From: Desulfobacterales bacterium
GTDB taxonomy: Bacteria; Desulfobacterota; Desulfobacteria; Desulfobacterales; Desulfosalsimonadaceae
DNA length: 33,126 nucleotides
Assembly (NCBI GenBank): GCA_018334555.1
Contig: JAGXLR010000012.1
Span: forward strand, 1-33,126
Reading direction: 5' to 3'
This document shows positions 18,701 to 33,126 of the stretch, in pieces (the first letter of the stretch is position 1; each line of letters starts with the position of its first letter). A program made the translations under genes and the position numbers. The notes under the pieces were generated by a model. That model worked only from the letters and a program-made list of their open reading frames with translations. It was not told where the DNA came from and searched no databases.

Positions 18701-20050
18701 GCCAAGGGCGCGGACGAGGCAAACGCCTCTGATTTTACCATGTGGGAATATGACGGGACCTCGGAATCATCGCCTTCGGATTTGGGCTATGTGTACGGCA
18801 AGGCCTATATCATCCAGACCACGGATGGCTGGAAGGTGGTTTTCGGCAACGGGTATAACAGCGAGAGCGAGGAGGCGGTCCTGTACCTGGTTGATGCCAA
18901 GGGCGGCCCCACTGCTGGTGTGACAAAGATTGAAACCGGCGTTACCGGCTGCAACGGCATGTCCTCGCCGGCTGTGGTGGACTATCAAACGGACGGAATC
19001 ATCGACGCGATTTATGCCGGGGATTTAAAGGGCAATCTCTGGAAATTCGATATATCCGGGGATAAAGCCGAGTGGGGAAGCGCCTATACCGACGGCACGA
19101 ATCCAAAGCCCCTGTTTACCGCGCAGAGTGCGTCCGGCGGCACCCAGCCGATCACCTCTGAGCCGGATGTCATGTACCACTGTCAATCGGAGAAGTCCGG
19201 CTATATCGTCGTCTTCGGCACCGGCAGCTATTTGAACGAGGATGATCTGAGCGATACGAGCCAGCAGACCATGTACGGCGTCTGGGACTGGAAGAAGGAG
19301 CTGGAAGCCCGGGGGGATATCTCAAACCCCGAGCAGCAATACCTGGGTGCATTCTCGACCGGGTCGCCGCGCGTGTTGACCAATATAGACGGGGCATCCT
19401 ATCTGAACGGGAACCCCCCGACGCTGCAGGAGCAGACAATAGACTATGAAGATGCGGATAAGTTGATCCTGTCCGACAACGAGGTCTATTATTTTGGCAC
19501 TGCGGAGCCCAGTACCGGGGAGACCCAATTGGGCTGGTACTTTGATCTGCCGCATTCCGGAGAACGGGTGGTGGAGGACCCCATGATCCGTTGGGACACG
19601 GCTGTCTTTGTTGGTATGTGGCCGGAATGCGATTACTGTGATTTAGGCGGCGGCAGCTCCGTTTTGTATCAGGTGGATGCATGCAACGGGGGACAAACAG
19701 AGGAAGCCCGGTTTGATGCCGACGGGGATGATGTCGTTGATCAATATGACATGGTCCATCCGGACAACCCGGACGTGACGTTTAACCCGGATGAGGATTA
19801 CGACGGGGACGGGGATACCGGCGATGAAGACGATATAATCGCGTTTTTAGAAATGTATGGGGATGGTACCACTGATTATGACGCGGATGATCTGGCGACG
19901 GTATCCGGTCAAGCATATGGCGATATCGTCCGTCCCACGCAGCTTCCGCCTGATCGGCTGGCAATCAATCCATCCACCGGGGCTCCGCCGAATACAACAC
20001 CGGTTGTCAAAATCGGCTCGGGATTCATATACTGGCGGATGATTGAGTAG
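15749..20050 (+). CDS. pilY1: PilY1-type pilus tip protein with inserted golvesin-like domain
   Basis: A 1433-residue secreted protein, long for PilY1. Signal peptide is about residues 1-31 (to AMG). A von Willebrand A-like domain starts at IMFIFDNSGSMDW (MIDAS Asp58, Ser60, Ser62) and resumes near 464 with IMMTDGAYNGQG (598-609). Between these halves, about residues 218-390, lies a domain resembling golvesin/xanthan-lyase C-terminal modules: Trp-containing strands, YNRTTDVEYVVY, VNQRYTSGQWVQL, CADAVKFVEV. The PilY1 propeller spans about 885-1300 (LGDLVHSTPFYHDGVVYVGA; a calcium-type blade with D1078, D1082 and D1086). Near 1322-1382 are two dockerin-like Asp-rich loops. The protein likely promotes pilus assembly and binds surfaces; the ligand is unknown. 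Confidence 0.93.
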   Translation: MIPRHKKRICQLTAVLAAVMFLFGAAPAMGGDCLDLADVPLRSLRTLTPPGLIMFIFDNSGSMDWETMTQTLGKDATLCDDSDAGFYLNLDQKYYGYQYIFDTTGLGGSDNILETDGSARDKFLWLARWHGYNKVYYNPTVDYQPWPKWVELANADQSELNHPNKEQPDTPDATTNGENAHPDQPRIHPMYNKYTYDLTQDFASITLVDKCATETETIFVDDVNSNNETGDTFSATHETAGDSTWGTSSSGDAYPAMGDPNTSSSTYHYSYVDRYEKNVDFTATWETTNLDPTKEYHVYATWRGELYNRTTDVEYVVYDGSVSNQTDVASRSVNQRYTSGQWVQLTSSSGPITFSGSTGIVQFEHTQNYNINETYYDERVCADAVKFVEVPPDAGTATIQQRHYYIVENGTPYLINLNGSDFEYYKVCDNNDNKIVEDGDLVQLTEEEASTAGIIPDCTYADAEQNFANWFSFYRKRDYTARYAVSQVITQMSNVLFGFSTIPEREDLGVRWIDTHFDGKDFDNTNELLNRVYMLSDPNSGTPLRKGMNKVGKYFQELGGTFANTADVNALGIYSDKGTTYPYFTAEYGGECQQAFTIMMTDGAYNGQGPNIPNADGDNNTAFDGGKYADTQQDTLADGAMEFYETDLKTNLEDLVPTNPADDNKQQHMVTYTLSYGVHGTEDPADYPDCIGLECEGSGCCPEPWPTVTKGSLTTLDDLYHAAVNGRGLYLNASNPPELVEALLRIKADIESRLGSAAAVATNSVQRRAGSKVYQAKYLEGWMGNLIAFNVKVGTGTIGEKVWEAKEVLKSTDWDSGRTIFTFGTTNGGSAFRYTSLSDVQKAKLQNGLDYAFGTGQAPTVEELVPYLRGNHAQEKKNGGIARNRDGKLGDLVHSTPFYHDGVVYVGANDGMLHAFDSESGEEHFAYVPGRVYDHLAELADPEYEHRFFVDGPPYVADVSSTQTLLAGGFGKGAKGVYCLDVSGAKGADEANASDFTMWEYDGTSESSPSDLGYVYGKAYIIQTTDGWKVVFGNGYNSESEEAVLYLVDAKGGPTAGVTKIETGVTGCNGMSSPAVVDYQTDGIIDAIYAGDLKGNLWKFDISGDKAEWGSAYTDGTNPKPLFTAQSASGGTQPITSEPDVMYHCQSEKSGYIVVFGTGSYLNEDDLSDTSQQTMYGVWDWKKELEARGDISNPEQQYLGAFSTGSPRVLTNIDGASYLNGNPPTLQEQTIDYEDADKLILSDNEVYYFGTAEPSTGETQLGWYFDLPHSGERVVEDPMIRWDTAVFVGMWPECDYCDLGGGSSVLYQVDACNGGQTEEARFDADGDDVVDQYDMVHPDNPDVTFNPDEDYDGDGDTGDEDDIIAFLEMYGDGTTDYDADDLATVSGQAYGDIVRPTQLPPDRLAINPSTGAPPNTTPVVKIGSGFIYWRMIE

Positions 20051-20098
20051 CTGCAATCAGCCAAGCAGTAAATATTATCAAGCAAGAGGGGAACTAAC

Positions 20099-20461
20099 AT
20101 GTACAAAAGAAAACTTAGTTGTCTCATAATGATGCTGGTCGTTGTGGCCTGGTTGTTCACACCGGGTATGGGGGCTGCCGAGAATAATGGGGCCGATATT
20201 GAAAAGATTCAGCCGCCAGAGCGGTTTGATGCCGGTGAGATCGATTATGTCGAGGAGGCGAAAGAAAATTTTGCCATTATCGGTCCGTTGGATGCGGTAT
20301 ATGACGAGCATGTGGTGATAAACGACCAGTCCTGCCCCCTGGCTGATTTCGCCGATATGGGCGGCACGTCTGTGGGCGATTTCGTGGGGGCGAAGGCGAA
20401 CGATGACGGAGAAGTCGTTGAACTGGAAAAGCTGGATCCAAAGACGTTTGAACGCCGATAA
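20099..20461 (+). CDS. Small secreted protein downstream of pilY1
   Basis: Not recognised as a named family. The 120-residue protein has a signal peptide (hydrophobic residues 8-22, probable cut after GMGA). A compact acidic domain follows with the pattern FAIIGPLDAVYDEHVVINDQ, then VGDFVGAKANDDGEVVELEKL. This looks like a small beta barrel of the kind found in secreted DUF5666-like proteins, but that is only a fold impression. It has an AGAGGGG ribosome binding site and lies 48 bases after pilY1, so it is probably part of the pilus operon. Confidence 0.75.
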   Translation: MYKRKLSCLIMMLVVVAWLFTPGMGAAENNGADIEKIQPPERFDAGEIDYVEEAKENFAIIGPLDAVYDEHVVINDQSCPLADFADMGGTSVGDFVGAKANDDGEVVELEKLDPKTFERR

Positions 20462-20499
20462 CGTTTTTGCTTGAAATGGATAACGGGTAAAGGCGGTAT

Positions 20500-20988
20500 A
20501 TGCGACTACTTACCGGATTTTCAGTAATGGCTCTGATGATGCTGATGTTGACGGCGGCAGCCTCGGCGGAATGCTACAAGTACAGGGATGAGGACGGGCA
20601 TCTGCATTTTACGGATGATATGAGCAATGTCCCCGTGGAAAAGCTGCCGGAGGTGGAGTCATTCGAGTCTGTAGACAAGGAACCCGTTCGACCTCCGCGC
20701 CGTTCGGATGCGGCTGCGTCTTCGGCAAAGCCGACGGCCTCCCCGCATACCTGGGATGGAAGACTCCGGATAAAGGTCGAGGATCTGGAGAAAGAAAAAA
20801 AGAAACTTGACCGGACCTTCAGCGAACTGCAGAAACAAAAGGCCGCCCTCCAGCAGAAGGCTCCGGAAAAAATGGGGCCTTCGGAGCGGGAGGCTTACCA
20901 GGCGCAGGTCAAGGAGCTAAACGCGCGTATCAAAAAATATGACAGGAAACGCGAAGAGTTCGAGAAGGCCATGGAGCGCATGTTTTAA
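20500..20988 (+). CDS. DUF4124-domain secreted protein with coiled coil
   Basis: The 162-residue protein has a signal peptide ending near ASA, then a DUF4124 domain (CYKYRDEDGHLHFTDDMSNVP, residues 25-45). A Pro/Ser-rich linker follows, then a long charged helix (about 88-162) predicted as coiled coil. DUF4124 proteins are periplasmic or envelope proteins of unknown activity. It lies 38 bases after the previous gene and is the last gene before the terminator at 21051, so it probably ends the rightward pilus operon. Confidence 0.82.
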   Translation: MRLLTGFSVMALMMLMLTAAASAECYKYRDEDGHLHFTDDMSNVPVEKLPEVESFESVDKEPVRPPRRSDAAASSAKPTASPHTWDGRLRIKVEDLEKEKKKLDRTFSELQKQKAALQQKAPEKMGPSEREAYQAQVKELNARIKKYDRKREEFEKAMERMF

Positions 20989-21050
20989 AGCCGGCTCATC
21001 CATATAATAAAACCTAAATTGACAATTACGGTTTCTACAACCAGAAAAAC

Positions 21051-21082
21051 AGCCGTAGGGCTCCCCTGCGGCTGCTTTTTTT
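21051..21082 (+). terminator. Intrinsic terminator of rightward pilus operon
   Basis: AGCCGTAGGG (21051-21060) pairs with CCCTGCGGCT (21064-21073), a 10-bp stem with one G-T pair and a 3-base loop, followed closely by TTTTTTT. It lies 62 bases after the DUF4124 gene stop. Confidence 0.88.
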
Positions 21083-21154
21083 GGCACAACAGGCAATTGG
21101 GGCTAAGGTAGCAGGGTGTCAATGCCATTGACTCAAACCCCGTAATAGATGCCT
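21083..21154 (+). other. Possible folded RNA segment upstream of the secretion ATPase
   Basis: Nested complementary pieces are visible: GGCA (21083) with TGCC (ending 21153), ATTGGGG (21096) with CCCCGTAAT, and a perfect hairpin GTCAAT-GCC-ATTGAC (21118-21132). It matches no riboswitch class I can name. The pairings are short and could be chance. Confidence 0.25.
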
Positions 21155-21181
21155 ATGTCATTTCGAACTATTTGTTTTCAA

Positions 21182-21209
21182 TTGACATTTAATCTGATAA
21201 GGGTAAAAT
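21182..21209 (+). promoter_or_regulatory. Candidate sigma-70 promoter before secretion ATPase gene
   Basis: TTGACA (21182-21187), a 16-base spacer and TAAAAT (21204-21209) match the housekeeping consensus well. However, it would start RNA almost at the ATG (21216), leaving no ribosome binding site, so either the RNA is leaderless or this match is accidental. Confidence 0.3.
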
Positions 21210-21215
21210 CGGAAT

Positions 21216-23039
21216 ATGACTACCGAAAAACAACATCCCTTCGCCGACAAAGCCGTCTGCAAAACCCTGGTCAGGCACGGCCTTTTAACCAAGGAGCAGG
21301 CCCGGGATGTCCTGGAGAAAAAGGCGCGCATACAGGGCAATCTCGAAAAGGAAAAGGCGGATCAAGCCCAAGATGGCGCTGCAAGTACCAGTGTCAGAAA
21401 CCCCGTTACCATAGTGGATGTCATTGCCTCCTTCAAGTTCAAGCGGGCGGACAACCCCTCGCTGGAACTCGACGAGGACGCGATTTTTAATGTCCTGGCC
21501 GATGAATGGGGCTATCCCTACAAAAAGATCGATCCGGTAAAACTGGATCTGAACCTCGTGACCACCACCATCCCCCGCAATTTTGCCATGAAGCACCTTG
21601 TGCTGCCCATTGGCGTGGAAAGCGGAAGGCTTGTGGTGGCCACCGCCAATCCGTTTAACGCAGAGGTGATCGAGGACCTCGGCCGGGTCAGCCAGATGCC
21701 GGTAACCCAGGTGGTGACCGCCAAGTCCGATGTGATCCGCCTGATTAACGAATTTTTCGGGTTCAAACGATCCATCGCTGCGGCGGAAGTTCAATTCGGC
21801 GCCCCGTCCATCGACCTGGGAAACCTTGAGCAGTATGTCCGGCTGAAGGCGACGGACGAGCTGCCGGCCAATGATCACCATATCGTCAATGCGGTTAACC
21901 ACCTTTTAAGCTATGCCTTTGACCAGCGGGCCAGCGATATCCATATCGAGCCCAAGCGCGATACGGACCTGGTCCGTATGCGGATTGACGGGGTGCTGCA
22001 TACGGTCTACAAGCTGCCCAAAAAGGTGCATTCTGCCATTATCAGCCGCATCAAAACCCTGTCCCGCTTGGATATCGCCGAAAAGCGGCGCCCCCAGGAT
22101 GGGCGGATAAAAACCGCCAAGGGCGATGCGGAGGTGGAAATCCGGATTTCGACCATTCCCGTGGCATTCGGCGAAAAGGTGGTCATGCGGATCATGGATC
22201 CGGATATCCTGTTCCAGGAAGTGGAGGAGCTGGGGTTTACATCACAGGATTTTGAGCACTACCAGCGGATGTTTTCCATGCCCTACGGGCTTATTCTGGT
22301 TTGCGGCCCCACCGGCAGCGGCAAATCAACCACCCTGTATTCCACCCTGAGGCGGATCTCCACGCCGGATATCAATATTACCACCGTTGAAGACCCCATC
22401 GAGATGATCCACGAGGAATTCAACCAGATTGCGGTCCAGCCGGCGGCGAATGTGACGTTTGCCACGATCCTGCGAAATATTCTGCGGCAGGACCCGGATG
22501 TGGTGATGGTAGGGGAGTTAAGGGACCTGGAAACCGTTCAGAATGCCATACAGACCGCCCTGACCGGGCACCTGGTGCTCTCCACCCTTCATACCAACGA
22601 TGCCCCGTCCGCCATTATCCGGCTCATGGATATCGGATTGCCGCATTTTCTGATCCAGGCCACGTTGACCGGGGTGATTTCCCAGCGCCTGGTCAGAAAG
22701 ATCTGTCCCAAGTGTATGGAGTCTTTCGAAATGGACTGCGAACAGCTTCGCCAGATGGGCCTGGATCTGGGAAGGGACGGCCGTGTTAAGCTTTATCGGG
22801 GCAAGGGGTGTATTAACTGCCGGTATACGGGCTACTACGGTCGAACCTCTGTCTTTGAGGTCATGCCCTATACAAGAACGCTTCGGGAAAAAACCACGGC
22901 GACCGCGGATCTTTCCGTTGTGCAGGATCAGGCCCTGAGAGAGGGAATGGTGACATTGAGGGAAAACGCCGTCAAAAAACTTTTGGACGGCGTTACCACC
23001 TATCAGGAAGTCATGCGGGTTACATGGGAACAGGCCTAG
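21216..23039 (+). CDS. GspE/PilB-family secretion or pilus assembly ATPase
   Basis: A 607-residue hexameric-type ATPase powering type II secretion or type IV pilus extension. The N-terminal region (about 65-190) is a GspE N-domain. The core has SDIHIEPKRD near 240, Walker A GPTGSGKST (364-372), the Asp box with TTVEDPIE near 390, Walker B with DPDVVMVGELRD (426-437), the His box TGHLVLSTLHTNDA, and a tetracysteine zinc site (C497/C500 and C532/C535). All catalytic residues are present, so it should be active. It is a separate transcription unit from the pilin operon. PilB versus GspE cannot be decided here, because no PilC, PilT or PilM-Q gene is nearby. Confidence 0.93.
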   Translation: MTTEKQHPFADKAVCKTLVRHGLLTKEQARDVLEKKARIQGNLEKEKADQAQDGAASTSVRNPVTIVDVIASFKFKRADNPSLELDEDAIFNVLADEWGYPYKKIDPVKLDLNLVTTTIPRNFAMKHLVLPIGVESGRLVVATANPFNAEVIEDLGRVSQMPVTQVVTAKSDVIRLINEFFGFKRSIAAAEVQFGAPSIDLGNLEQYVRLKATDELPANDHHIVNAVNHLLSYAFDQRASDIHIEPKRDTDLVRMRIDGVLHTVYKLPKKVHSAIISRIKTLSRLDIAEKRRPQDGRIKTAKGDAEVEIRISTIPVAFGEKVVMRIMDPDILFQEVEELGFTSQDFEHYQRMFSMPYGLILVCGPTGSGKSTTLYSTLRRISTPDINITTVEDPIEMIHEEFNQIAVQPAANVTFATILRNILRQDPDVVMVGELRDLETVQNAIQTALTGHLVLSTLHTNDAPSAIIRLMDIGLPHFLIQATLTGVISQRLVRKICPKCMESFEMDCEQLRQMGLDLGRDGRVKLYRGKGCINCRYTGYYGRTSVFEVMPYTRTLREKTTATADLSVVQDQALREGMVTLRENAVKKLLDGVTTYQEVMRVTWEQA

Positions 23040-24326: not shown

Positions 24327-25586
24327 ATGAATTTTATCGCCGTCATCATTTTAGTCGCTTTGGCCTTAAACCTGATTCTGCATATCACCGCCGACATATG
24401 CAACCTAAAGAATCTGAGTACGCAGCTGCCCGAGTCATTCAAGGGTTGGTATGACCCGGATCGGTACCGTGACGCCCAGGCGTACCTTCTGGCCAATACC
24501 CGGTTCGAGTGGGTGTCATCCGGCGTCTCGCTGGCGGTATTCCTTTTGCTGTGGTTTGGCCATGGGTTCCCCATGCTCGACCAGTGGGTGCGTTGCCTCG
24601 CGCAGTCGCCGATCATCCGGGGGCTTGTCTATATCGGCGTGCTGGTCGGTGTAAAGGCGGTGATCGGCCTGCCGTTTTCCGTCTATTCGACGTTTGTAAT
24701 CGAAGAGCGCTTCGGATTCAACCGGACCGATGCAAAGACATTTGTCTCGGATTTGATCAAGCGAACCGTGCTGGGCGTCTTGATCGGAGGCGCCCTGCTC
24801 GCCGGCGTCCTGGCCTTTTTTGAATACGCGGGCGACAATGCCTGGTGGTATTGCTGGATCGCGGTGGCGGCTTTCATGGTGGCTATGCAGTTCGTCGTAC
24901 CCACGTGGATCATGCCGCTTTTCAACAGGTTCACCCCGCTCGAGCCGGGGGAGTTGAAAACCGCCATCCTCTCCTATGCCGAATCCATCGGGTTCCCGCT
25001 GAAAAACGTATTCGTCATGGACGGCTCGAAACGCTCGGGCAAGGCGAACGCTTTTTTCGCCGGATTCGGCCGGAATAAACGGATCGTTTTATTCGACACC
25101 CTGATCGAAAACCACGATGTCTCCGAGCTGGTGGGGATCCTCGCCCATGAAATGGGGCATTACAAAAAAAAGCACATTTACTGGATGATGCTTGCCGGCA
25201 TTATTCAAAGCGGGGCGCTCCTTTTTCTCCTGTCCCTGTTTATCTCAGCCCGGCCGCTTTTCGAGGCGTTTTATATGGATCAGGCATCCGTTTACGCGGG
25301 CCTTGTGTTTTTCGGGATTCTCTACAGCCCGATCGATTTTTTTATCGGCATTTTCGTGCAGATGTTCTCCAGGCAGAATGAGTACGCGGCCGATCGGTTC
25401 GCCGCGGAGACAACAAGGCGGCCGAATGAATTTATCCGGGCGTTGAAAAAACTTGCGGTGCACAACCTGGCCAATCTGCGGCCGCACCCCCTGTATGTGT
25501 TCTTAAACTATTCGCACCCGCCCATACTGGACCGGATCGAGGCGATCTCTAAAATAGGGGCGGAATCAAGGCCTTGGAATGGTTAA
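24327..25586 (+). CDS. M48-family membrane metalloprotease (Ste24/CAAX protease-like)
   Basis: A multi-pass membrane zinc protease. The zinc site HEMGH is at residues 274-278, followed by KKKH, and a later NEYAADRFAAE supplies the third ligand. KRSGKANAFFAGFGRNKRIVLFDTL just before HEXXH is typical of the Ste24 group, which removes C-terminal tripeptides from prenylated proteins in eukaryotes; bacterial members probably do membrane protein quality control. The ATG at 24327 gives 419 residues; an in-frame TTG at 24312 lies in the tandem repeat. Neither has a clear ribosome binding site. Its last 38 bases overlap the convergent DUF362 gene. Confidence 0.9.
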   Translation: MNFIAVIILVALALNLILHITADICNLKNLSTQLPESFKGWYDPDRYRDAQAYLLANTRFEWVSSGVSLAVFLLLWFGHGFPMLDQWVRCLAQSPIIRGLVYIGVLVGVKAVIGLPFSVYSTFVIEERFGFNRTDAKTFVSDLIKRTVLGVLIGGALLAGVLAFFEYAGDNAWWYCWIAVAAFMVAMQFVVPTWIMPLFNRFTPLEPGELKTAILSYAESIGFPLKNVFVMDGSKRSGKANAFFAGFGRNKRIVLFDTLIENHDVSELVGILAHEMGHYKKKHIYWMMLAGIIQSGALLFLLSLFISARPLFEAFYMDQASVYAGLVFFGILYSPIDFFIGIFVQMFSRQNEYAADRFAAETTRRPNEFIRALKKLAVHNLANLRPHPLYVFLNYSHPPILDRIEAISKIGAESRPWNG

Positions 25587-26847
25587 GGCGGGCTCTGGCA
25601 AGCAGGGCCAGGGATTTTACCGGGTTCATATCGGCCAGCGTCATGGGATTCACCTTCATGTGCCGGCAGAGCGCGTAAACGGTTGCCGGCAGGTTGTTGC
25701 AGCCCTGGCTGAAGGTGACATTTTTTTTGCCGAACCGGCGGACCATCTCCCGGCCGTAATCCTGTATCGCACAGCTGCCAGCCAAATGCACCGGCGGTTT
25801 TTCTATTCGGTCCACCGCCGCCGGATCGATGTCCTTGCCCATGAGGATCGTAAAATCCCCACCTCCGTTGTGGTCGTTGTATAGGATCTCAACCACGGTT
25901 TCGGTGTTGCGCCGGCATCCCTCCATGCAGCAGCGCGTTTTTCCCCTCAGGATACGAAGATCCGGCGGAAATTTTTCCAGTAAATGATGGGTCAAAACCC
26001 GTTTGCGGGCCTCAAACAGGTGCCGGTTGATGATCTCGACCGTATCCGGCTGGGATGCGGTGCTGATGCCGGTTTTTGCGGCAAGCGCCAGATGCGGTAC
26101 ATCTTCGATTTTGTAGCCCAGAAAGGCTGCGGCGATAATGTCCACGGCGAGCGGGTCGTCCCCGCCGATCAGGCAGTTCATGGGAATAATGCATTCGTCT
26201 TCGAATTTTTCGGCAATATAGTGGCCGTGGTGGGTGGCGATCAGGCCGTCTGTGACGACGAAGTCCGGCCGCAGCACCCGGTAAATATCGGCGAATTTCT
26301 GGTGAAGCCGGAAGTTGTGGTCCGCCACCCGGCTGTGCTGGTGGACCAGTCCGAACTGGTTTTTTATGGAAAGCGTGACCTGGGACATGGAATGGGTTTT
26401 TAGCTTGGGAAGCGACACGTAGAGGTTGGCGTCTTTTTGCTCAACCAGCCGGCAATAGACGAAGTCCGAAATGTCGACAAAGGACTGGAGCCCTTCGAGA
26501 TAGACCGGGACCGCCCCGGTTTCATCCAGGTATACCGGGATGGCCCCGGTTTCTTTGCATGCCCGGGCCAGGCCAGCGGCCTCAAAGACCAGCCGGGTGA
26601 TGTTGCCCTGGGTGCAGTTCTCGATGACGTATATGTTGTTGGCGCCGGCTTTCTGAAAATGGCGGATGACCGCCTTCAGGACCTCCGGGTGGGTGAAGGC
26701 ATGCTTTTTTAGATCCACGGCGTTGGGCTTTAAGAAGACGTCGCCGCTGGATTTCAGTAGCGAACCGGCACCTCCCGCATGGTCGAATATCTCTGCCACG
26801 GCCCTGTCAATGCCTTGGTTGGTGTCGGAAAAAATGACCCTGTGCAT
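25549..26847 (-). CDS. DUF362-domain protein
   Basis: A 432-residue cytoplasmic protein of the DUF362 family, common in anaerobes and of unknown biochemistry. Visible features are DVFLKPNAVDLKKHAFTHPEVLKAVI near the N terminus, LYVSLPKLKTHSMSQVTLSIKNQFGLV in the middle (the most conserved part), and GGDDPLAVDIIAAAFLGY. A cysteine group, CCMEGCRRNTE, near residue 310 and later CNNLP could hold metal, but no classical ferredoxin motif is present. GGAGG precedes the ATG. It lies downstream of the FGGY kinase on the same strand, across a 349-base repeat tract, so a link with that cluster is uncertain. Confidence 0.85.
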   Translation of the reverse strand: MHRVIFSDTNQGIDRAVAEIFDHAGGAGSLLKSSGDVFLKPNAVDLKKHAFTHPEVLKAVIRHFQKAGANNIYVIENCTQGNITRLVFEAAGLARACKETGAIPVYLDETGAVPVYLEGLQSFVDISDFVYCRLVEQKDANLYVSLPKLKTHSMSQVTLSIKNQFGLVHQHSRVADHNFRLHQKFADIYRVLRPDFVVTDGLIATHHGHYIAEKFEDECIIPMNCLIGGDDPLAVDIIAAAFLGYKIEDVPHLALAAKTGISTASQPDTVEIINRHLFEARKRVLTHHLLEKFPPDLRILRGKTRCCMEGCRRNTETVVEILYNDHNGGGDFTILMGKDIDPAAVDRIEKPPVHLAGSCAIQDYGREMVRRFGKKNVTFSQGCNNLPATVYALCRHMKVNPMTLADMNPVKSLALLARARLNHSKALIPPLF

Positions 26848-26860
26848 CGCTTCCTCCGGA

Positions 26861-26968
26861 AAGGTTCAAGGTTTAAGGTAAAAGGTGCAAGGTTCAGGGT
26901 AAAAGGTTCAGGGTGCAAGGTTCAGGGTAAAAGGTTCAGGGTGCAAGGTTCAGGATGCAAGGTTCAGG
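26861..26968. repeat. Tandem tract of a 14-bp unit
   Basis: From 26885 the 14-mers GTGCAAGGTTCAGG and GTAAAAGGTTCAGG alternate as two exact 28-bp units (26885, 26913) and continue with two single 14-mers to 26968. Degenerate copies precede them. The tract is not a CRISPR: there are no unique spacers. Confidence 0.92.
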
Positions 26969-27004
26969 TTTCATTCCGTAGGTTTAAGCGCCATTTGGCC
27001 GCAT

Positions 27005-27076
27005 TGTCATTTCGAGCGAAAGCGAGAAATCTTTTACAAACAAGATTCCTCGTCGCTTGCGCGCCTCGGAATGACA
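27005..27076. repeat. 72-bp palindromic (REP-like) element, copy 2
   Basis: TGTCATTTCGAGCGAAAGCG at the left end pairs with the CTCGGAATGACA right end. Length and arms match copies 1 and 3. Confidence 0.9.
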
Positions 27077-27133
27077 AGGCAAAAAGCTTGCGCGCCTCGG
27101 AATGACAAGGCAAAAAGCTTGCGCGCCTCGGAA
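27057..27133. repeat. 31-bp tandem derived from the palindrome's right arm
   Basis: The unit beginning TTGCGCGCCTCGGAATGACA occurs at 27057 and 27088, exactly 31 bases apart, with a truncated third copy at 27119. The first copy overlaps the end of palindromic element copy 2, so the tandem grew from it. Confidence 0.9.
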
Positions 27134-27183
27134 CGAAAAATTCAATAGAGGGCAAGGCTATAGCCTTCCAGTCGCAAGGTGCC

Positions 27184-27212
27184 GGGTGTATCGACATCAT
27201 GTCGGATACCCC
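27184..27212 (-). other. Hairpin over the FGGY kinase stop codon
   Basis: On the minus strand GACAT/ATGTC, GTATC/GATAC and GGG/CCC pair in order with single-base bulges around the stop codon. No T-run follows, so this is only a possible factor-dependent terminator or RNA-stabilising hairpin. Confidence 0.3.
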
Positions 27213-28753
27213 GTAATCGTCCGGATATCCTTGTATAATGGCTTCAGCCGGTTGTACATTTTCTTATAAACCCGGGTGTATAGCTGATCATACAGCCTAT
27301 GGGTCTGGGGGTCCGGTTCGAACACATCGCCGGTACGGGTCATCGCATTGACCGCGGATTGGAAATCCGGCGCAAGGCGTAACCCCACGGCGGCGTTAAT
27401 GGCCGCGCCGAGCCCGGAGGTCTCATAGAGATGCGGCCGGGCGGTCGGCAGGTTGAAAATATCCGCGGTGACCTGCATGGCATGCCGGCTCTGGGAGCCG
27501 CCGCCGGAAACCCGCAGGGCCTTAATTGGAATCTTGGTCCGTTTTTCAATTTGCTCCTTGCCTTGCCGCAGGGCGTAGGCGAGTCCTTCAAGAATGGCGC
27601 GGTAGACATGGGCCCGGCGATGGATATCGCCGAACCCGATGATGGCGCCTTTTGCCTCCGGCCCCGGCTGAATGATCCCCGGGCTCCAATAGGGCTGGAG
27701 CATCAGTCCCATGGCGCCCGGGCGGGTATCGTCGATCAGCCGGTCAAACAGGGCTTCGGCATCCACGCCTAAATCCTCGGCCTTCTCCTGTTCTTCATGG
27801 CCGAACTCGTTTTTAAACCAGCTTACCATCCAGTAGCCCCGGAAAATCTGGATTTCTAATGAAAACCGGCCGGGAACCGCGGACGGGTAGGGGGGCATCA
27901 GGGGGATCGGCTCCACGTATTGGGTGTGGGTGACATTGATGGTAGCGGTGGTGCCGTAGCTGATACAGCCGATTGAGGGCTCAAGGGTGCCGGAGCCGAT
28001 GATTTCACAGGCTTTATCCGCAGCCGCGGCGATTACCGGAAGATCCTTGGGGATGCCGGTCTGCTCGGCGGCTTCAAGCGTAACGTGGCCGAGGATATCG
28101 CCCGGTGCGGTAAGCGCCGGCAGCTTCTCAGCCGCCACCGCCATCCCCTGCCATTTCCAGTCCGAGGCCTTGGCCCAGGTCTGGCGCTTGTAGTCAAACG
28201 GGATATACCCCACCTGGCAGCCCACGGAATCGGTAAATTTTCCGGTCAATCGGTAGGTGAGGTACCCGGATAACAGAAGATACTTGTGTGTGTTCTCCCA
28301 GATTTCCGGCTGGTGCGTCCGGATCCAGTTGGCCTCGGCTTCGCGCTGGAAGTAGGCCACGGTCTCCGAGAGCCGGGCAATTTTAAACAACAGGCCCCAT
28401 GCCCCGCCAATCGGTGGCAGGCCGAATGCCTTGCGCTGATCCAGCCATAGGATGGCCGGCCGAAGCGGTTTTCCCGAGCGGTCCACGTTGATGACGGTGC
28501 CTCGTTGGGTGGTGAGGGCCATCCCCGCAATTTTTTCCCTTTCCATATTTTCGCGCCGCCACAGCCGCTGGCAGGCCGTACAAAGCGTTCGCCAGTAGAG
28601 ATCCGGATCCTGTTCCGCCCATCCCGGATTTTTGGAAAAATACGGCTCAAACGGAATTTTTTCGATGGCCACCATATTTCCGGCCAGATCGAAAATCATG
28701 GCCTTAAGACTCTGGGTGCCATTGTCAATGGCAAGAAGGAGATCTTTTGTCAT
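27197..28753 (-). CDS. FGGY-family carbohydrate kinase (glycerol/xylulose kinase-like)
   Basis: A 518-residue ATP-dependent sugar or polyol kinase. The N-terminal phosphate motif is [18 protein letters not shown] (residues 5-22). The [11 protein letters not shown] segment is typical of many FGGY members. The catalytic Asp lies in [13 protein letters not shown] near 250, and the second FGGY domain has [12 protein letters not shown] and [22 protein letters not shown] near 430. Its ATG lies 31 bases after the glpD stop with an AAAGGGG binding site, so it is co-transcribed. Context makes glycerol or a related three-carbon substrate plausible, but the sequence is not a close match to classical GlpK, so substrate stays open. 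Confidence 0.88.
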
Positions 28754-28783
28754 CGCAGCCCCTTTCCCCTTATACCTTTTCCC

Positions 28784-30337
28784 TTATAGTGGAATCCCAT
28801 GCGCATAATCCCAGTGCCTGATGTAGCATTGCCGCTCCTTTTCCCATCGGGTCGCGTCCCAGGGGAGCATCGGCGCACACAGCCGTTGAATCCGGTCAAG
28901 ATGGTTTCTTCCGCCGCCTTCCATCAGGAGGCCGATGCGGACCCGTCGCAGCAGCAAGTCCGAGAGGTGCCGTATCCGTTCTTTTTTGGCCAGCATGGGC
29001 AGTTCCGCCCACAGGGTGTCTGTGCCGGGCATAGGCTTTAGGTCATCGGTCGATGCGGTTTCGAGCATTGCTTCCGCATCCCTGCCATAACGGCCGTAAA
29101 GCCTTCTTAACTGATAGGGGGGAAGCCGTTTTTCAAATTCCGGTTTTGGAAAGGCCGGTGTAAAGGCCGGTTCGTTCATACGGAGTCGCGGGCCTCCGGG
29201 CAGATAGGGCATCGCCGCATTCAGGGCGTCCCTTGCAAGGGAGCGGAATGTGGTAAGCTTGCCCCCGGTAATGGTTACCAGCCCGTCTTTTACCCAGACG
29301 ATATACTCCCGGGATTCTTTGGACGGGGGCTTGTCCCCCTTGCTCAGGACCGGACGAATGCCCGCCCACGAGGATACCGCGTCGCTTAGCCGGATATTTA
29401 GGGAGGGGAAATGCACATTAAGGGCCGCCATCATGTATTCGGCCTCCGGTTGGTCCATTACCGGCTCTTTAAAAAGCTCCATGCCGTGGTCGAGGTCGGT
29501 TGTGCCGAGCATCAGGGCGCCTTCCCAGGGAATGATAAACAGCGGCCGGTCATCGGCCGGATGGATGAGGGTTACCGCCTGGTTGATGGGAAGCATCCAT
29601 CGGGGAAATACCAGGTGGCTGCCGCGAAGGGGGCGTAAATGCAGATGGGGCTTCGGGGATGGATGCAGTTTCTCCGCCCAGGCGCCGGTGGCATTAACTA
29701 CCGTTTTGGCCGAGACCTCCCGCACCACACCGGTCTCCGTATCCTCCAGGCCGATACCGGCGACCTTCCCTTTTCGGTCCCGGTTGACGCGGACGACCCG
29801 GGTGTAGTTGAGAGCCGCGCCCCCGGCGGCGATCCCTTCGTTTATCAACCGAAGCACCAGCCGGGCGTCATCCACCTGGGCGTCCACGAACCGGAAGCCG
29901 CCGGTGAGCCCCTCCTCCGAGATGCCGGGGACGAGCCCGGCGAAGGCCTTTTTGTCATAACGGCGGCGGTTTTTTTCGCCGGCCATGCCGTCATATAGGG
30001 TCAGTCCGGCCTGTATGGAGAGTTTTCCGGGGCCGCGGTTTTTATAAACCGGCATCAGGAAGGAAATCGGCTCCACCATCCCCGGCGCTTCCCGCAGCAT
30101 CCGTTCGCGCTGTTTTACCGAATCATAGGTTAAAAAGAGTTTTCCCTCTTTTAAATACCTGAGCCCGCCGTGGATCAGTTTGGAGGAGCGGCTGGAGGTT
30201 CCCCAGGCGAAATCACTGGCTTCGCACAACAGGGCGCTAAGCCCCATCCGCACCGCCTCCCGAAATACGCCGGCCCCGGTGATGCCGCCACCGACCACCA
30301 CCACGTCCCAATCGGTCTTGATTTCTTCAGGTCCCAT
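28784..30337 (-). CDS. glpD: FAD-dependent glycerol-3-phosphate dehydrogenase
   Basis: GlpD oxidises sn-glycerol 3-phosphate to dihydroxyacetone phosphate and passes electrons to quinones at the membrane. The 517-residue length is typical. VVVVGGGITGAGVFREA (residues 12-28) is the FAD dinucleotide fold; TSSRSSKLIHGGLRYLK near 50 is the family signature; ADDRPLFIIPWEGALMLGTTD and TITGGKLTTFRSLARDAL are further conserved blocks. The C-terminal alpha-helical domain is complete. It is followed directly by the FGGY kinase gene. A 421-base repeat-containing gap separates it from the upstream flavoprotein gene. Confidence 0.94.
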   Translation of the reverse strand: MGPEEIKTDWDVVVVGGGITGAGVFREAVRMGLSALLCEASDFAWGTSSRSSKLIHGGLRYLKEGKLFLTYDSVKQRERMLREAPGMVEPISFLMPVYKNRGPGKLSIQAGLTLYDGMAGEKNRRRYDKKAFAGLVPGISEEGLTGGFRFVDAQVDDARLVLRLINEGIAAGGAALNYTRVVRVNRDRKGKVAGIGLEDTETGVVREVSAKTVVNATGAWAEKLHPSPKPHLHLRPLRGSHLVFPRWMLPINQAVTLIHPADDRPLFIIPWEGALMLGTTDLDHGMELFKEPVMDQPEAEYMMAALNVHFPSLNIRLSDAVSSWAGIRPVLSKGDKPPSKESREYIVWVKDGLVTITGGKLTTFRSLARDALNAAMPYLPGGPRLRMNEPAFTPAFPKPEFEKRLPPYQLRRLYGRYGRDAEAMLETASTDDLKPMPGTDTLWAELPMLAKKERIRHLSDLLLRRVRIGLLMEGGGRNHLDRIQRLCAPMLPWDATRWEKERQCYIRHWDYAHGIPL

Positions 30338-30390
30338 TGTCTATTCCCTATTTAGTCTTGATCGAAGTATTTTGAGGATTAAAATTTGAC

Positions 30391-30525
30391 AGTCTCGTAA
30401 AAAGTCCAAGCCCCGGCTAAGATCCGGGGGCTCGCAAAATCCCGTGGAATGCAGCGTACTTAGCTGTACGTGAAATTCCGAGGGACGGAAGCGCAACACA
30501 GATATTGGACTTCTAAGTAACTCGA
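30391..30525. repeat. 135-bp inverted-repeat (MITE-like) element
   Basis: AAGTCCAA (30402) pairs with TTGGACTT (ending 30512), with weaker pairing out to GTCTCG/CTCGAC at the ends. The centre is a nested stem: GGAAT (30446), 4 bases, CGTAC, a 6-base loop, GTACG, 4 bases, ATTCC (ending 30479). This is the same layout as the centre of the 12822-13031 element. Confidence 0.7.
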
Positions 30526-30559
30526 CAATATTTAATATTATTTTAGATGCTTTCGCTGT

Positions 30560-30631
30560 TGTCATTCCGAGGAGCGAAAGCGACGAGGAATCTTGATTGT
30601 TCAAGATTTCTCGCTGCCGCTCGAAATGACA
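30560..30631. repeat. 72-bp palindromic (REP-like) element, copy 3
   Basis: TGTCATTCCGAGGAGCGAAA at the left pairs with CGCTCGAAATGACA at the right; its left arm is nearly identical to copy 1's. Confidence 0.92.
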
Positions 30632-30758
30632 ATGCGGATGTTTTTTAGAGTTACTTTCTGTAAAAATACCGCACCAGCGGAATAAACCGCTTTTTACGAA
30701 GCCATCAAAATTTAAGCCTGACACAGAAATTGAGCAAAAGGGGACATTTTCAATAAGG

Positions 30759-32354
30759 CTATGAGAGTTTGCCCGGATTCATCCGCATATCCGGATCCGT
30801 ATACGACCAGATCCGATTTAGCAGGTCCACGCCCATCCGGCCTTTTTCCGCGGCCAGGTAAGGCTTATGGTCCGTTCCCACCCCGTGCTGATGGGAGATG
30901 GTGCCCCCGGCATCAACAATGGCCTGGCTGGCTTTGGTTTTAAGCAGCTGCCAGCGGCTCATGGTCTCCTCGGCGGTTTCCGCCAGCCGGTATACAAACG
31001 TCGTGTAAACGCTTGAGCCCGTCTTATAAACATGGGAGAGATGCGAGAAGACGTGGACGCTTTCGTTTTTCTCCGATAGGGCGCTGCTGACAGCGGACTC
31101 CACCGCTGCCATGGTCGGCCGCACGTTATCCCAGTTAACGGCGGTTTCAAGGGTGTCCACGCCGTAGCCATAGTCCCACAGGGTGTTCCTTAAATAGGGG
31201 GCCAGGAATCGGTTCTTCTTCCAGGCGTTGCCCATGGATTTGCCGACGGGGACGCCGTTAAACTTTTTGATGACGTCCCGCGCATTGCGCCAGCCGATAT
31301 GCACCGCTTTCCGGCTGCCGATGAGGCCGATAAGCGCCATGCAATAGGTGCTGTCACATAGCCCCCTGAGCCTCAAGTATCGTTTTAAAAGGGCGATCTG
31401 CTTTTCATGACCGGCCAGGATGAGGTTGGTCATGGTCTCCGTGGGATTGCTCAAACGGACCATGGAAAGCGGCAGCTCGGCGGCAGTCAAGGCGCGTACG
31501 GCATCGACCGCCTTATCCCAGGAGGGGAAAAAGACGCCGTATATATCATCCGATGCCGGTATTTCCGATATTCTGACCCGGGCATCGGCAAGGACGCCCA
31601 TCCGGCCCTCGGAGCCCATGACGATTTGACGGATATCAGGCCCGGCCGCCGAGGCGGGATAGGGCGGCAGCATCATATCGTCTTTGGCGGTGATGAGCCG
31701 GCCGCCGGCGAAGAGCCCCTCGATGCGGCCGTAGTACATGGACTGCTGACCGCTGGATCGTGTGGTCACCCAGCCGCCGAGGGTTGATTGTTCATATGAC
31801 TGGGGATAGTGGCCCAGCGTATAGCCGTAGGTCCTGAGCTGGGCCTCCAGGTGCGGCCCGCGGACGCCGGCTTCGAATGTGGCCAGCCGGTTGTAAGAAT
31901 TGATGTCCACCAGGCGGTTCAACCGTTCGAGGGATAATGACACGACGGGGCGGTCGCCATCCGGTACATTCAGGTGTCCGACGACGCTGGTGCCGCCGCC
32001 GTACGGGATGACGACGGCGTTTTCCTTTTCGGCAAATGCCAGTATATCGGCTATTTCATCCGTTGTCGTGGGGTAGGCCACGGCATCCGGAAACCGGTCT
32101 AATGAGCCGTAGCGAAACCCGATCCAATCCGGAAAACTCTGGCCATAGGCATGAAGGAGCCGCTCTTCGGAATCGGTCGAGACGAGCGATATGGGCTGCC
32201 GGATACGGCTTTGCGGGACACGGGAAAGGAGCTGTTTTTTCGAACAGGCCGGGCCGGGGGCGGCGCTGCCCACGAGTTCATTAAGCATTGTAGCCGCCCC
32301 TTCGGGCAGCGGCATCTCAACCTGATCATCCCCCCATCCGTTCCAACGATACAT
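30759..32354 (-). CDS. FAD-linked oxidase/synthase resembling alkylglycerone-phosphate synthase
   Basis: A 531-residue VAO-type flavoprotein. ATG 32354 has a perfect AAGGAGG 6 bases upstream. The opening YRWNGWGDD resembles the conserved KWNGWGYND of alkylglycerone-phosphate synthase. The FAD loop PYGGGTSV is at 117-124; PQSYEQSTLGGWVTTRSSG near 184 and GPDIRQIVMGSEGRMGV at 238-254 match that family. The C-terminal TISHQHGVGTDHK (near 487) corresponds to its His-rich catalytic loop. That enzyme swaps an acyl for an alkyl chain on dihydroxyacetone phosphate; related bacterial proteins (for example E. coli YgcU) have unproven reactions. The gene start overlaps fadR by 29 bases, implying co-expression. 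Confidence 0.85.
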   Translation of the reverse strand: MYRWNGWGDDQVEMPLPEGAATMLNELVGSAAPGPACSKKQLLSRVPQSRIRQPISLVSTDSEERLLHAYGQSFPDWIGFRYGSLDRFPDAVAYPTTTDEIADILAFAEKENAVVIPYGGGTSVVGHLNVPDGDRPVVSLSLERLNRLVDINSYNRLATFEAGVRGPHLEAQLRTYGYTLGHYPQSYEQSTLGGWVTTRSSGQQSMYYGRIEGLFAGGRLITAKDDMMLPPYPASAAGPDIRQIVMGSEGRMGVLADARVRISEIPASDDIYGVFFPSWDKAVDAVRALTAAELPLSMVRLSNPTETMTNLILAGHEKQIALLKRYLRLRGLCDSTYCMALIGLIGSRKAVHIGWRNARDVIKKFNGVPVGKSMGNAWKKNRFLAPYLRNTLWDYGYGVDTLETAVNWDNVRPTMAAVESAVSSALSEKNESVHVFSHLSHVYKTGSSVYTTFVYRLAETAEETMSRWQLLKTKASQAIVDAGGTISHQHGVGTDHKPYLAAEKGRMGVDLLNRIWSYTDPDMRMNPGKLS

Positions 32355-33057
32355 CGTCAACCTCCTTTTCGGTTGTTTTCATTTGCTTCCATAGATCGAT
32401 ACTTTTTACCATGGCTTTCCGGACGGTCGTCTCCACCCGGGTCCTGTCATTGTCAATCGCCTGTCGCAGCCCCTTATAGAAGGCGAGCGAGGCCTCCCTG
32501 GCGGCTTCACGGCTGAAATAGAGGGCCGCCATGGTCTTAAAAATCGTTTCGAAATCGTTTAAAATCATCAGATGAACCGGGTTCCCGGAATGCCGGGCCA
32601 AGAGCTGCTGCAGCTGCCAGTCGTATTCGGTAAATGCCGCCGGATCGTTTTTAAGGCCCGTACACCGCTCCAGGTAGGCGGCAATGGGCTCGGGTGCCTT
32701 TTCAATCGCCTGTTTGGCAATCGGCGGGTTGATTATGACCCGGAGCTCGAGCAAATGCTCAATAAAGGACGCCGGTAGATAGCTGCCGTATTTGACCAGG
32801 GTGCCCAGCAGCCGCAACCCCCCTTTTTCCCAGAAATAGTTGACCTCGGTGGGTTTTCCATGCCTTATCGTGACCCATCCTTCGCTGGCCAGGCGCTGCA
32901 GCGTCTCCCGGATCGTCGGGCGCGTCACTCCCAGATTCTCCGCGAGTTTTCGCTCCGCAGGCAGCGCGGATCCCGGCGGGTATCGCCCGTCGAGGATTCG
33001 CTCGATGAGCTGTTGTTCGGTAAATCGTCCCGGTCGAAGGGGGGTGTCGGTATGCAT
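32326..33057 (-). CDS. fadR: FadR-type acyl-CoA-responsive regulator (GntR family)
   Basis: A 243-residue DNA-binding protein that closely resembles E. coli FadR along its length. The winged helix shows YPPGSALPAERKLAENLGVT, then RPTIRETLQRLASEGWVTIR, then HGKPTEVNYFWE. The residues matching E. coli's DNA contacts R35, T44, R45, T47, R49 and H65 are all present, shifted by one. In the ligand domain Ser219 and Trp223, whose E. coli mutants fail to respond to acyl-CoA, are kept; Tyr215 and Gly216 are replaced by Ala and Met. In E. coli long-chain acyl-CoA releases FadR from DNA. It heads the cluster with its own operator upstream, suggesting autoregulation and control of the downstream flavoprotein. 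Confidence 0.92.
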   Translation of the reverse strand: MHTDTPLRPGRFTEQQLIERILDGRYPPGSALPAERKLAENLGVTRPTIRETLQRLASEGWVTIRHGKPTEVNYFWEKGGLRLLGTLVKYGSYLPASFIEHLLELRVIINPPIAKQAIEKAPEPIAAYLERCTGLKNDPAAFTEYDWQLQQLLARHSGNPVHLMILNDFETIFKTMAALYFSREAAREASLAFYKGLRQAIDNDRTRVETTVRKAMVKSIDLWKQMKTTEKEVDDVSLERMGG

Positions 33058-33082
33058 CGTGACCTCTTTTTATTATATTGGT

Positions 33083-33099
33083 AAGAGGTCATACCAGTT
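33083..33099 (-). promoter_or_regulatory. FadR-type operator upstream of fadR
   Basis: On the minus strand the 17-mer is AACTGGTATGACCTCTT. It resembles the known E. coli FadR site (AGCTGGTCCGACCTGTT type), agreeing at 13 of 17 positions including the CTGGT and GAC cores. It overlaps the -10 region of the predicted fadR promoter. A second half-site, TGACCTCTT, lies at 33060-33068 in inverted orientation. Confidence 0.65.
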
Positions 33100-33116
33100 T
33101 ATTTTGATTTTGTCAA
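33088..33116 (-). promoter_or_regulatory. Sigma-70 promoter of fadR
   Basis: On the minus strand TTGACA (33111-33116), a 17-base spacer and TATGAC (33088-33093) form a good housekeeping promoter. The RNA start would be near 33081, leaving about 24 bases before the ATG with AGAGG as ribosome binding site. The -10 box is covered by the FadR-type operator. Confidence 0.6.
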
Positions 33117-33126
33117 TCAAAAAAAA

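Follow-up and report, generated by a model that had tools for sequence, protein, structure and literature searches.

Here we describe an operon on the minus strand of a 33,126-base stretch of DNA from a Desulfobacterales bacterium (GenBank assembly GCA_018334555.1, contig JAGXLR010000012.1), which combines a FadR-type regulator with an AGPS-like flavoprotein, a GlpD-like flavoprotein and an FGGY kinase. The window, as we call this whole stretch, is the entire contig (C24 of the host genome, G000) and stops just past fadR. We tentatively propose, from sequence comparison and at something short of an even chance, that the operon specifies a FadR-repressed, acyl-CoA-induced pathway that would recover the glycerol backbone of ether lipids, and for which we infer both substrate and direction. 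A sequence-only reading of the window had placed the four genes on one strand, and profile searches bore out their strand, coordinates and domain families as follows.

32326..33057, minus strand: FadR-type GntR regulator, 243 amino acids (FadR_C, 1.9e-33)
30759..32354, minus strand: AGPS-like FAD protein (open reading frame listed from TTG 32360, 30759-32360; ATG 32354 preferred)
28784..30337, minus strand: GlpD-like FAD protein, 517 amino acids (DAO and DAO_C)
27197..28753, minus strand: FGGY kinase of the YgcE-like type, 518 amino acids (FGGY_N and FGGY_C over cut-off)

The likely translation start of the AGPS-like gene is ATG 32354, which overlaps the end of fadR and lies six bases downstream of AGGAGG.

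In the proposed pathway, lipases and phospholipases would remove the acyl and head groups to leave a 1-O-alkylglycerol, whose free end would be phosphorylated by the FGGY kinase to give alkyl-glycerol 3-phosphate. The GlpD-like flavoprotein would oxidise C2 to produce alkyl-dihydroxyacetone phosphate (alkyl-DHAP), with the electrons probably going to the quinone pool. The AGPS-like protein would then run AGPS chemistry backwards. C1 of alkyl-DHAP would become bound to flavin N5 with release of the fatty alcohol, whose place would then be filled by water or a fatty acid; the products would be DHAP (or acyl-DHAP) plus fatty alcohol. Oxidation of the fatty alcohol would yield acyl-CoA, the putative inducer acting on FadR. 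We prefer breakdown to biosynthesis because the cleavage order gives each gene a needed role and suits induction by acyl-CoA.

The grouping of the AGPS-like, GlpD-like and kinase genes is not due to chance. In 60 genomes (the host's own included), a search with the flavoprotein revealed close orthologues in 15 and a second, more distant AGPS-like group. From lists drawn by hand (E<=1e-40 for AGPS; at least 390 bits for the GlpD-like protein), AGPS and kinase were both present in 36 genomes, AGPS only in 4, kinase only in 5 and neither in 15 (Fisher 7e-7), while AGPS and the GlpD-like protein were both present in 29, AGPS only in 11, the GlpD-like protein only in 0 and neither in 20 (Fisher 2e-8); since the 60 genomes are related, these p values are a guide only. 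Scanning of 41 stretches at 100 bits or more (the window and 40 loci, many of which end at contig ends) gave AGPS-like genes in 40, the kinase in 24, the GlpD-like gene in 21 and FadR in 19, the FadR matches being strong in 12 cases (>300 bits) and weak in 7 (113-130 bits); the stretch without an AGPS-like gene is contig C189, described below. Gene order differs in L085, L088, L090, L092 and L099, and this variation argues for function rather than mere inheritance. Among named genomes, at least 588 stretches were confirmed to encode relatives, and the best 80 were kept. All three enzymes were found together in 61 of these 80 loci, AGPS with the GlpD-like protein in 75 and FadR in 17. The named loci span Desulfobacterota, Chloroflexota, Beta-, Gamma- and Alphaproteobacteria and some other metagenome-assembled genomes; they overlap the 60-genome set by at least one, L115 being the same contig as L039. 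Co-occurrence and joint loci in several phyla thus support the view that the genes form one functional module. A family of divergent 358-residue frames was also present in 21 of the best 80 loci, and its two annotated members, beta- and gammaproteobacterial copies, are AraC regulators with an Arabinose_bd domain (PF12625).

Judged by its domains, tree position and residues, the window flavoprotein belongs to the AGPS family, with most catalytic residues kept. It consists of FAD_binding_4 and FAD-oxidase_C domains, and its best matches in the PDB were Dictyostelium AGPS (7.4e-79) and guinea pig AGPS (1.2e-60), well ahead of a D-lactate dehydrogenase (1.8e-20). The bacterial AGPS-like groups joined animal and Dictyostelium AGPS, apart from GlcD-like proteins, with support 95/88, in a tree whose GlcD side comprised three GlcD-like proteins from the host as well as E. 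coli GlcD and which carried a long-branch warning on YgcU and the GlcD side. We take Arg419, Tyr578, His300, Arg515 and His615-617 to be the catalytic residues of AGPS. R419 and R515 were kept in all 122 AGPS-like sequences, H300 and Y578 in 121, and H615 and H617 in 120. E. coli YgcU carries H300, R419, R515, Y578 and H615-617, whereas E. coli GlcD is without R419, R515, H300, Y578 and H615, H617 alone being present. A hydroxyacid-dehydrogenase identity, the alternative that the sequence-only reading had set against AGPS, was rejected on the strength of the tree and the residue pattern. Compared with eukaryotic AGPS, the window protein shares the sequence family, most catalytic residues and the nearest solved structures, but it differs in carrying Gln for Asp303 and, in its subtype, Gln for His616, in its place in a bacterial operon and in the reverse direction proposed here. 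A second AGPS-like protein of the host (L051, G000:C200, 11379-12929), with 30% identity to that of the window, has an intact HHH motif and lies near a methylmalonyl-CoA mutase-type gene.

The GlpD-like protein scored 288.9 against NCBIfam PRK12266 (GlpD), below the cut-off of 360. The E. coli GlpD residues R54, Y55, H233, R317, R332 and K354, which we assume to form the active site, were all kept in 93 of 93 GlpD-like sequences, making a glycerol-3-phosphate-like substrate likely. The kinase, by its scores and pocket residues, is not of the GlpK type. Compared with three E. coli kinases, it gave 221 bits with YgcE, 117 with GlpK and 114 with XylB, and it scored 150.1 bits against NCBIfam TIGR01311 (GlpK), for which the cut-off is 590.35. 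The residues of GlpK that presumably bind glycerol are Arg84, Glu85, Tyr136, Asp246 and Gln247. Arg84 and Asp246, together with Trp104, were kept in 95 of 95 kinases; Glu85 was replaced by Gly, Ala, Ser, Asp or Asn in all 95, Gln247 was replaced by Lys in 93, and Tyr136 was absent from all 95, in a column that aligned less securely. A pocket without Glu85 and Tyr136 and with Lys247 suggests a substrate other than, and perhaps larger than, glycerol. Phe271 of GlpK was considered as a further marker (Thr in 24 sequences) but fell in a gap column of the larger alignment and was not used. A true GlpK is encoded elsewhere in the host genome (G000:C112; 710.5 bits against the cut-off of 590.35), and 35 of the 41 genomes with the kinase contain a GlpK over the cut-off. 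For the Actinobacteria, two loci carry annotation (L227 and L228; Tsukamurella and Streptomyces fungicidicus) and two more do not. In both annotated ones, a gene of the diacylglycerol-kinase or YegS/Rv2252/BmrU family comes after the AGPS-like gene, which has TetR and GlpD on its other side. The presence of a lipid kinase in the slot of the FGGY kinase suggests that the phosphorylated substrate is a lipid.

FadR is best known from gammaproteobacteria. The window FadR passes NCBIfam PRK04984 (208.2 over 189), falls under the cut-off of TIGR02812 (198 vs 249.2) and shares 38% identity over 220 residues with E. coli FadR, the DNA-reading region and the HGKPT wing being alike (the L099 row of this alignment was not informative). 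Directly upstream of the gene, the following elements are predicted.

33079..33099, minus strand: putative FadR operator, 21 bp, AACTGGTATGACCTCTTACCA
33111..33116, minus strand: putative -35 hexamer TTGACA of the fadR promoter, as read from the sequence
33088..33093, minus strand: putative -10 hexamer TATGAC, read likewise, with a 17-nt spacer and TGG ahead (extended -10), inside the operator

TTGACA, the 17-nt spacer and TATGAC together put the operator on the -10 box, so that bound FadR should repress the fadR promoter and acyl-CoA should derepress it. A simple promoter scan, which requires T at position 6, does not call this promoter; TTGACA or a near variant stands ahead of the operator in most Desulfobacterota rows compared. 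At three mismatches or fewer, the operator matched once in the window and not at all in 100 shuffles. Across the 60 genomes, matches at the same tolerance came to 22 rows, spread over 20 genomes, compared with 5 for a reversed control, the two rows of the host genome being one place on two overlapping contigs. The exact operator occurred in 14 of 60 genomes, upstream of a FadR gene in 13 of the 14, and sequence together with coordinates placed an operator ahead of a FadR gene of the same direction in 16 of the 20 matching genomes. The G022 site is reversed and separated from FadR by some 160 bases or more, and the matches in G014 and G042 have three mismatches and no FadR beside them. G044 has two FadR-type sites, with 2 and 3 mismatches, neither of them adjoining FadR: that of L220 (G044:C80, 4820-4840) separates a GlpA-like DAO gene from a DeoR regulator, and that of L223 (G044:C21, 4324-4344) precedes a kinase-AGPS pair by about 80 bases.

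The form TGGTATGACCT, found upstream of fadR in the window and its relatives, is two mismatches from the FadR-type operator TGGTCNGACCA. Of the 17 FadR-bearing named loci, 11 carry a TGGTCNGACCA-type site (exact or with one mismatch) where FadR starts, 2 carry TGGTATGACCT there and L140 has a two-mismatch variant; no operator was seen at the FadR start of L119, L137 and L183, the gene of L137 being cut by the contig end. Where weak FadR-like regulators accompany the second AGPS group, exact TGGTCNGACCA lies at their start in 7 of 7 cases. This conserved predicted operator supports the FadR-type control of the module that had been suggested from the window alone. In a scan of the host genome for a wider FadR regulon, a looser pattern (two mismatches or fewer) gave 11 matches and the control also 11, so that one site alone is claimed.

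On its other side, fadR is followed by a lipid setting. Contig C189 of the host genome opens with 127 bases identical to window positions 33000-33126, and we read this overlap, together with the agreeing gene order in G001 and G002, as an assembly junction. C189 carries two PhaR DNA-binding-domain genes, two ArsA-type ATPases, a wax-ester/triacylglycerol synthase (WS/DGAT) and a DegP-type protease, and a patatin-like lipase gene lies 8.4 kb into the contig. The operon thus flanks fadR on one side and an island for neutral-lipid storage flanks it on the other. A patatin-like gene adjoins fadR in L041, L219 and L111 (G030, G035 and G008), with the operator in between, and stands directly ahead of the kinase in L102 (G006). 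For some members of a single family, WS/DGAT, PhaR-type and patatin genes thus supply the lipid setting that the sequence-only reading implied. Other neighbours that recurred on clustering outside the core were mostly antisense frames, FadR, AraC and locally conserved genes, the last including SelA with TPR in four genera and prismane with Fe-S genes in genus g5. In this genus (L039, L040 and L042), prismane-type, Fe-S and pyridine-nucleotide-disulfide oxidoreductase genes lie upstream of the module, as annotated in L040.

The storage-lipid neighbourhood and the kept residues would equally fit an acylglycerol substrate. Monoacylglycerol from storage triacylglycerol would be phosphorylated and oxidised to acyl-DHAP, from which the acyl half-reaction of AGPS would release DHAP and fatty acid. 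Ordinary lipases already free acyl chains, however, and a three-enzyme route would seem needless; we consider this explanation very improbable.

The operon type itself is known already. In Pseudomonas aeruginosa, PA3026-PA3025-PA3024 are described as one operon, which is activated by the AraC regulator GliR (PA3027) and encodes a GlpD homologue, an FGGY kinase and an oxidoreductase assigned to the step of alkylglycerone phosphate. Kotecka et al. set the three products on a route from glycerol to alkylglycerone phosphate, and when GliR is overproduced, a phospholipase C and a lipid kinase rise along with the operon (PMC8151288, in the portions available), which we count in favour of breakdown. 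The window operon likewise holds AGPS-like, GlpD-like and FGGY kinase genes together, a likeness judged from the paper's description and a Pseudomonas sp. copy (L128) rather than from the PA proteins themselves. That operon has a divergent AraC regulator, whereas the operon in the window has FadR with its own predicted operator and, in the window's family, an adjoining storage-lipid island; and the available text of that paper reports all orthologues clustered in four genomes and eight similar ones, compared with the 61 of the best 80 of at least 588 loci given above. What appears new here is the control of this operon type by FadR through a predicted 21-bp operator, and the occurrence of the FadR-controlled form beside a storage island in the window's family. 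Within the accessible text of the literature on the gene set, PA3026-PA3024, YgcU/YgcE, ether-lipid genes of sulfate reducers and alkylglycerol catabolism or ether cleavage, no experimental function of the operon was found.

Both the sequence-only reading and Kotecka et al. (PMC8151288, same portions) point to biosynthesis. The kinase and GlpD would make DHAP, an acyltransferase encoded elsewhere would form acyl-DHAP, and the AGPS-like protein would replace the acyl group by a fatty alcohol, so that the resulting alkyl-DHAP could enter ether lipids of membranes or stores. In favour of this direction, the AGPS catalytic residues are mostly kept, and acyl-CoA induction would suit synthesis from imported fatty acids too. 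By contrast, the kinase is not of the GlpK type while a GlpK is present elsewhere, and DHAP for synthesis requires neither a kinase nor GlpD. The sequence-only reading had looked to a DHAP acyltransferase or fatty-alcohol-forming reductase near fadR; none was found among the annotated recurrent neighbours, some neighbours being left unannotated and no genome-wide search being made. Nor did its appeal to the ether lipids of sulfate reducers hold. Those of Desulfatibacillum alkenivorans are ascribed, in the parts of the two papers at hand, to glycerol ester reductase (Ger), which turns an ester bond into an ether bond, and not to AGPS (PMC11150832, PMC8788747), and so provide no evidence for the window operon. 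Ger/ElbD resembles the present case in concerning bacterial ether lipids and anaerobes, but Ger is not in the window operon. The host genome encodes two candidates, proteins of 1413 and 1465 residues with BcrAD_BadFG and DUF2229, whose size and domain content would suit Ger, but DUF2229 proteins occur in 56 of 60 genomes. Taking both sides into account, we regard biosynthesis as doubtful.

Several findings weigh against ether-lipid recovery, the function that we prefer. The ability of AGPS to run in reverse is assumed. His616 of AGPS is Gln in 89 of 122 sequences, the window's included, and His in 31, and Asp303 is Gln in 121 of 122. The WS/DGAT of the island makes lipid rather than breaking it, and with the PhaR-type genes it renders an ether-linked storage lipid, hence biosynthesis, conceivable. 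Since the operator lies between patatin and fadR in L041, L219 and L111, patatin is not downstream of it. A genome-wide link between WS/DGAT and close AGPS orthologues was sought and rejected, since WS/DGAT occurs in 25 of all 60 genomes and, as read from the tables, in 7 of the 15 that have a close orthologue, so that the link is only positional and confined to part of one family. Growth was reportedly unchanged by deletion of PA3026-PA3024 in the conditions named in the available text (citrate, glycerol, rich medium, media of osmotic stress and Biolog plates), a list in which alkylglycerols do not appear (PMC8151288). The non-Pseudomonas strains identified in that text are said there to be without glpD and glpK homologues, so that the operon may be their glycerol route, and in our set no GlpK over the cut-off was found in 6 of 41 kinase-bearing genomes.

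Other observations that count against ether-lipid recovery would accord with a route that breaks down glycerol, a different polyol or a different glycerol ether, in which the AGPS-like protein would act as a simple FAD dehydrogenase. The top NCBIfam score of the kinase was for xylulokinase (250.5, under the cut-off of 380.25), and its nearest PDB match was an archaeal glycerol kinase. No second GlpD homologue was found in the host genome at E<=1e-40. Distant AGPS-like genes (about 29%) adjoin acyl-CoA synthetase, CoA-transferase or aldehyde dehydrogenase genes, and these varied settings indicate that the AGPS-like family is mixed. In E. coli, YgcE, the nearest of the three kinases compared, is encoded near the flavoprotein YgcU, as the sequence-only reading had mentioned (ygcU is L056, 7965-9419), among flavoprotein and transporter genes. 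The ygc stretch resembles the window in its related kinase and in a flavoprotein with AGPS residues, but it has no GlpD and contains a short-chain dehydrogenase/reductase (YgcW), other flavoproteins and transporters instead. As YgcU has the AGPS residues, a phosphorylated glycerol ether may be the substrate of the uncharacterised ygc cluster as well. Simple polyol catabolism is at odds with the AGPS rather than GlcD residue pattern, with FadR control, with the lipase and WS/DGAT setting in part of one family and with the replacement of the FGGY kinase by a lipid kinase in two Actinobacteria; we judge it unlikely.

Alkyl ether bonds are chemically stubborn. AGMO, a tetrahydrobiopterin-dependent monooxygenase, is called the only known alkylglycerol-cleaving enzyme in the available parts of PMC9192799 and PMC7911779, and as a monooxygenase it needs oxygen. 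We hold it possible, with rather more doubt than assurance, that many aerobic and anaerobic bacteria cleave the alkyl ether of glycerol ether lipids independently of oxygen through reversed AGPS chemistry, induced through FadR where FadR is present. If true, three familiar enzyme types would carry out oxygen-free ether-lipid cleavage in bacteria of several phyla, which would explain ether-lipid recycling without oxygen and give a function to a widespread operon. FadR would likewise be placed over a dedicated lipid operon, with a conserved predicted operator, in Desulfobacterota and Chloroflexota.

Two further features lie next to or within the operon.

25549..26847, minus strand: DUF362 protein (Pfam DUF362)
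30338..30758, no strand assigned: high-copy interspersed repeat, 421 bp, between the AGPS-like and GlpD-like genes, outside the proposed function (a search of the 3.2-Mb genome gave 61 match rows, this copy counted)

In the window and in L037, L038, L040, L110 and L111, the DUF362 gene lies downstream of the kinase and shares its strand, and it is possibly a fifth operon gene in the window's family. The interspersed repeat has a core of about 310 bp and 30-nt inverted arms (30375-30404 and 30690-30719) that are 80% complementary, and an inverted partial copy of it lies at 26999-27077. Between the DUF362 gene and the kinase there is also a tandem array of 14-bp units (26861-26986), followed by three 31-bp direct repeats (27055-27147). 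Ahead of the module, at 15749-23039, type IV pilus genes for a PilY1-like protein and a PilB/GspE-type ATPase were recognised by reading only.

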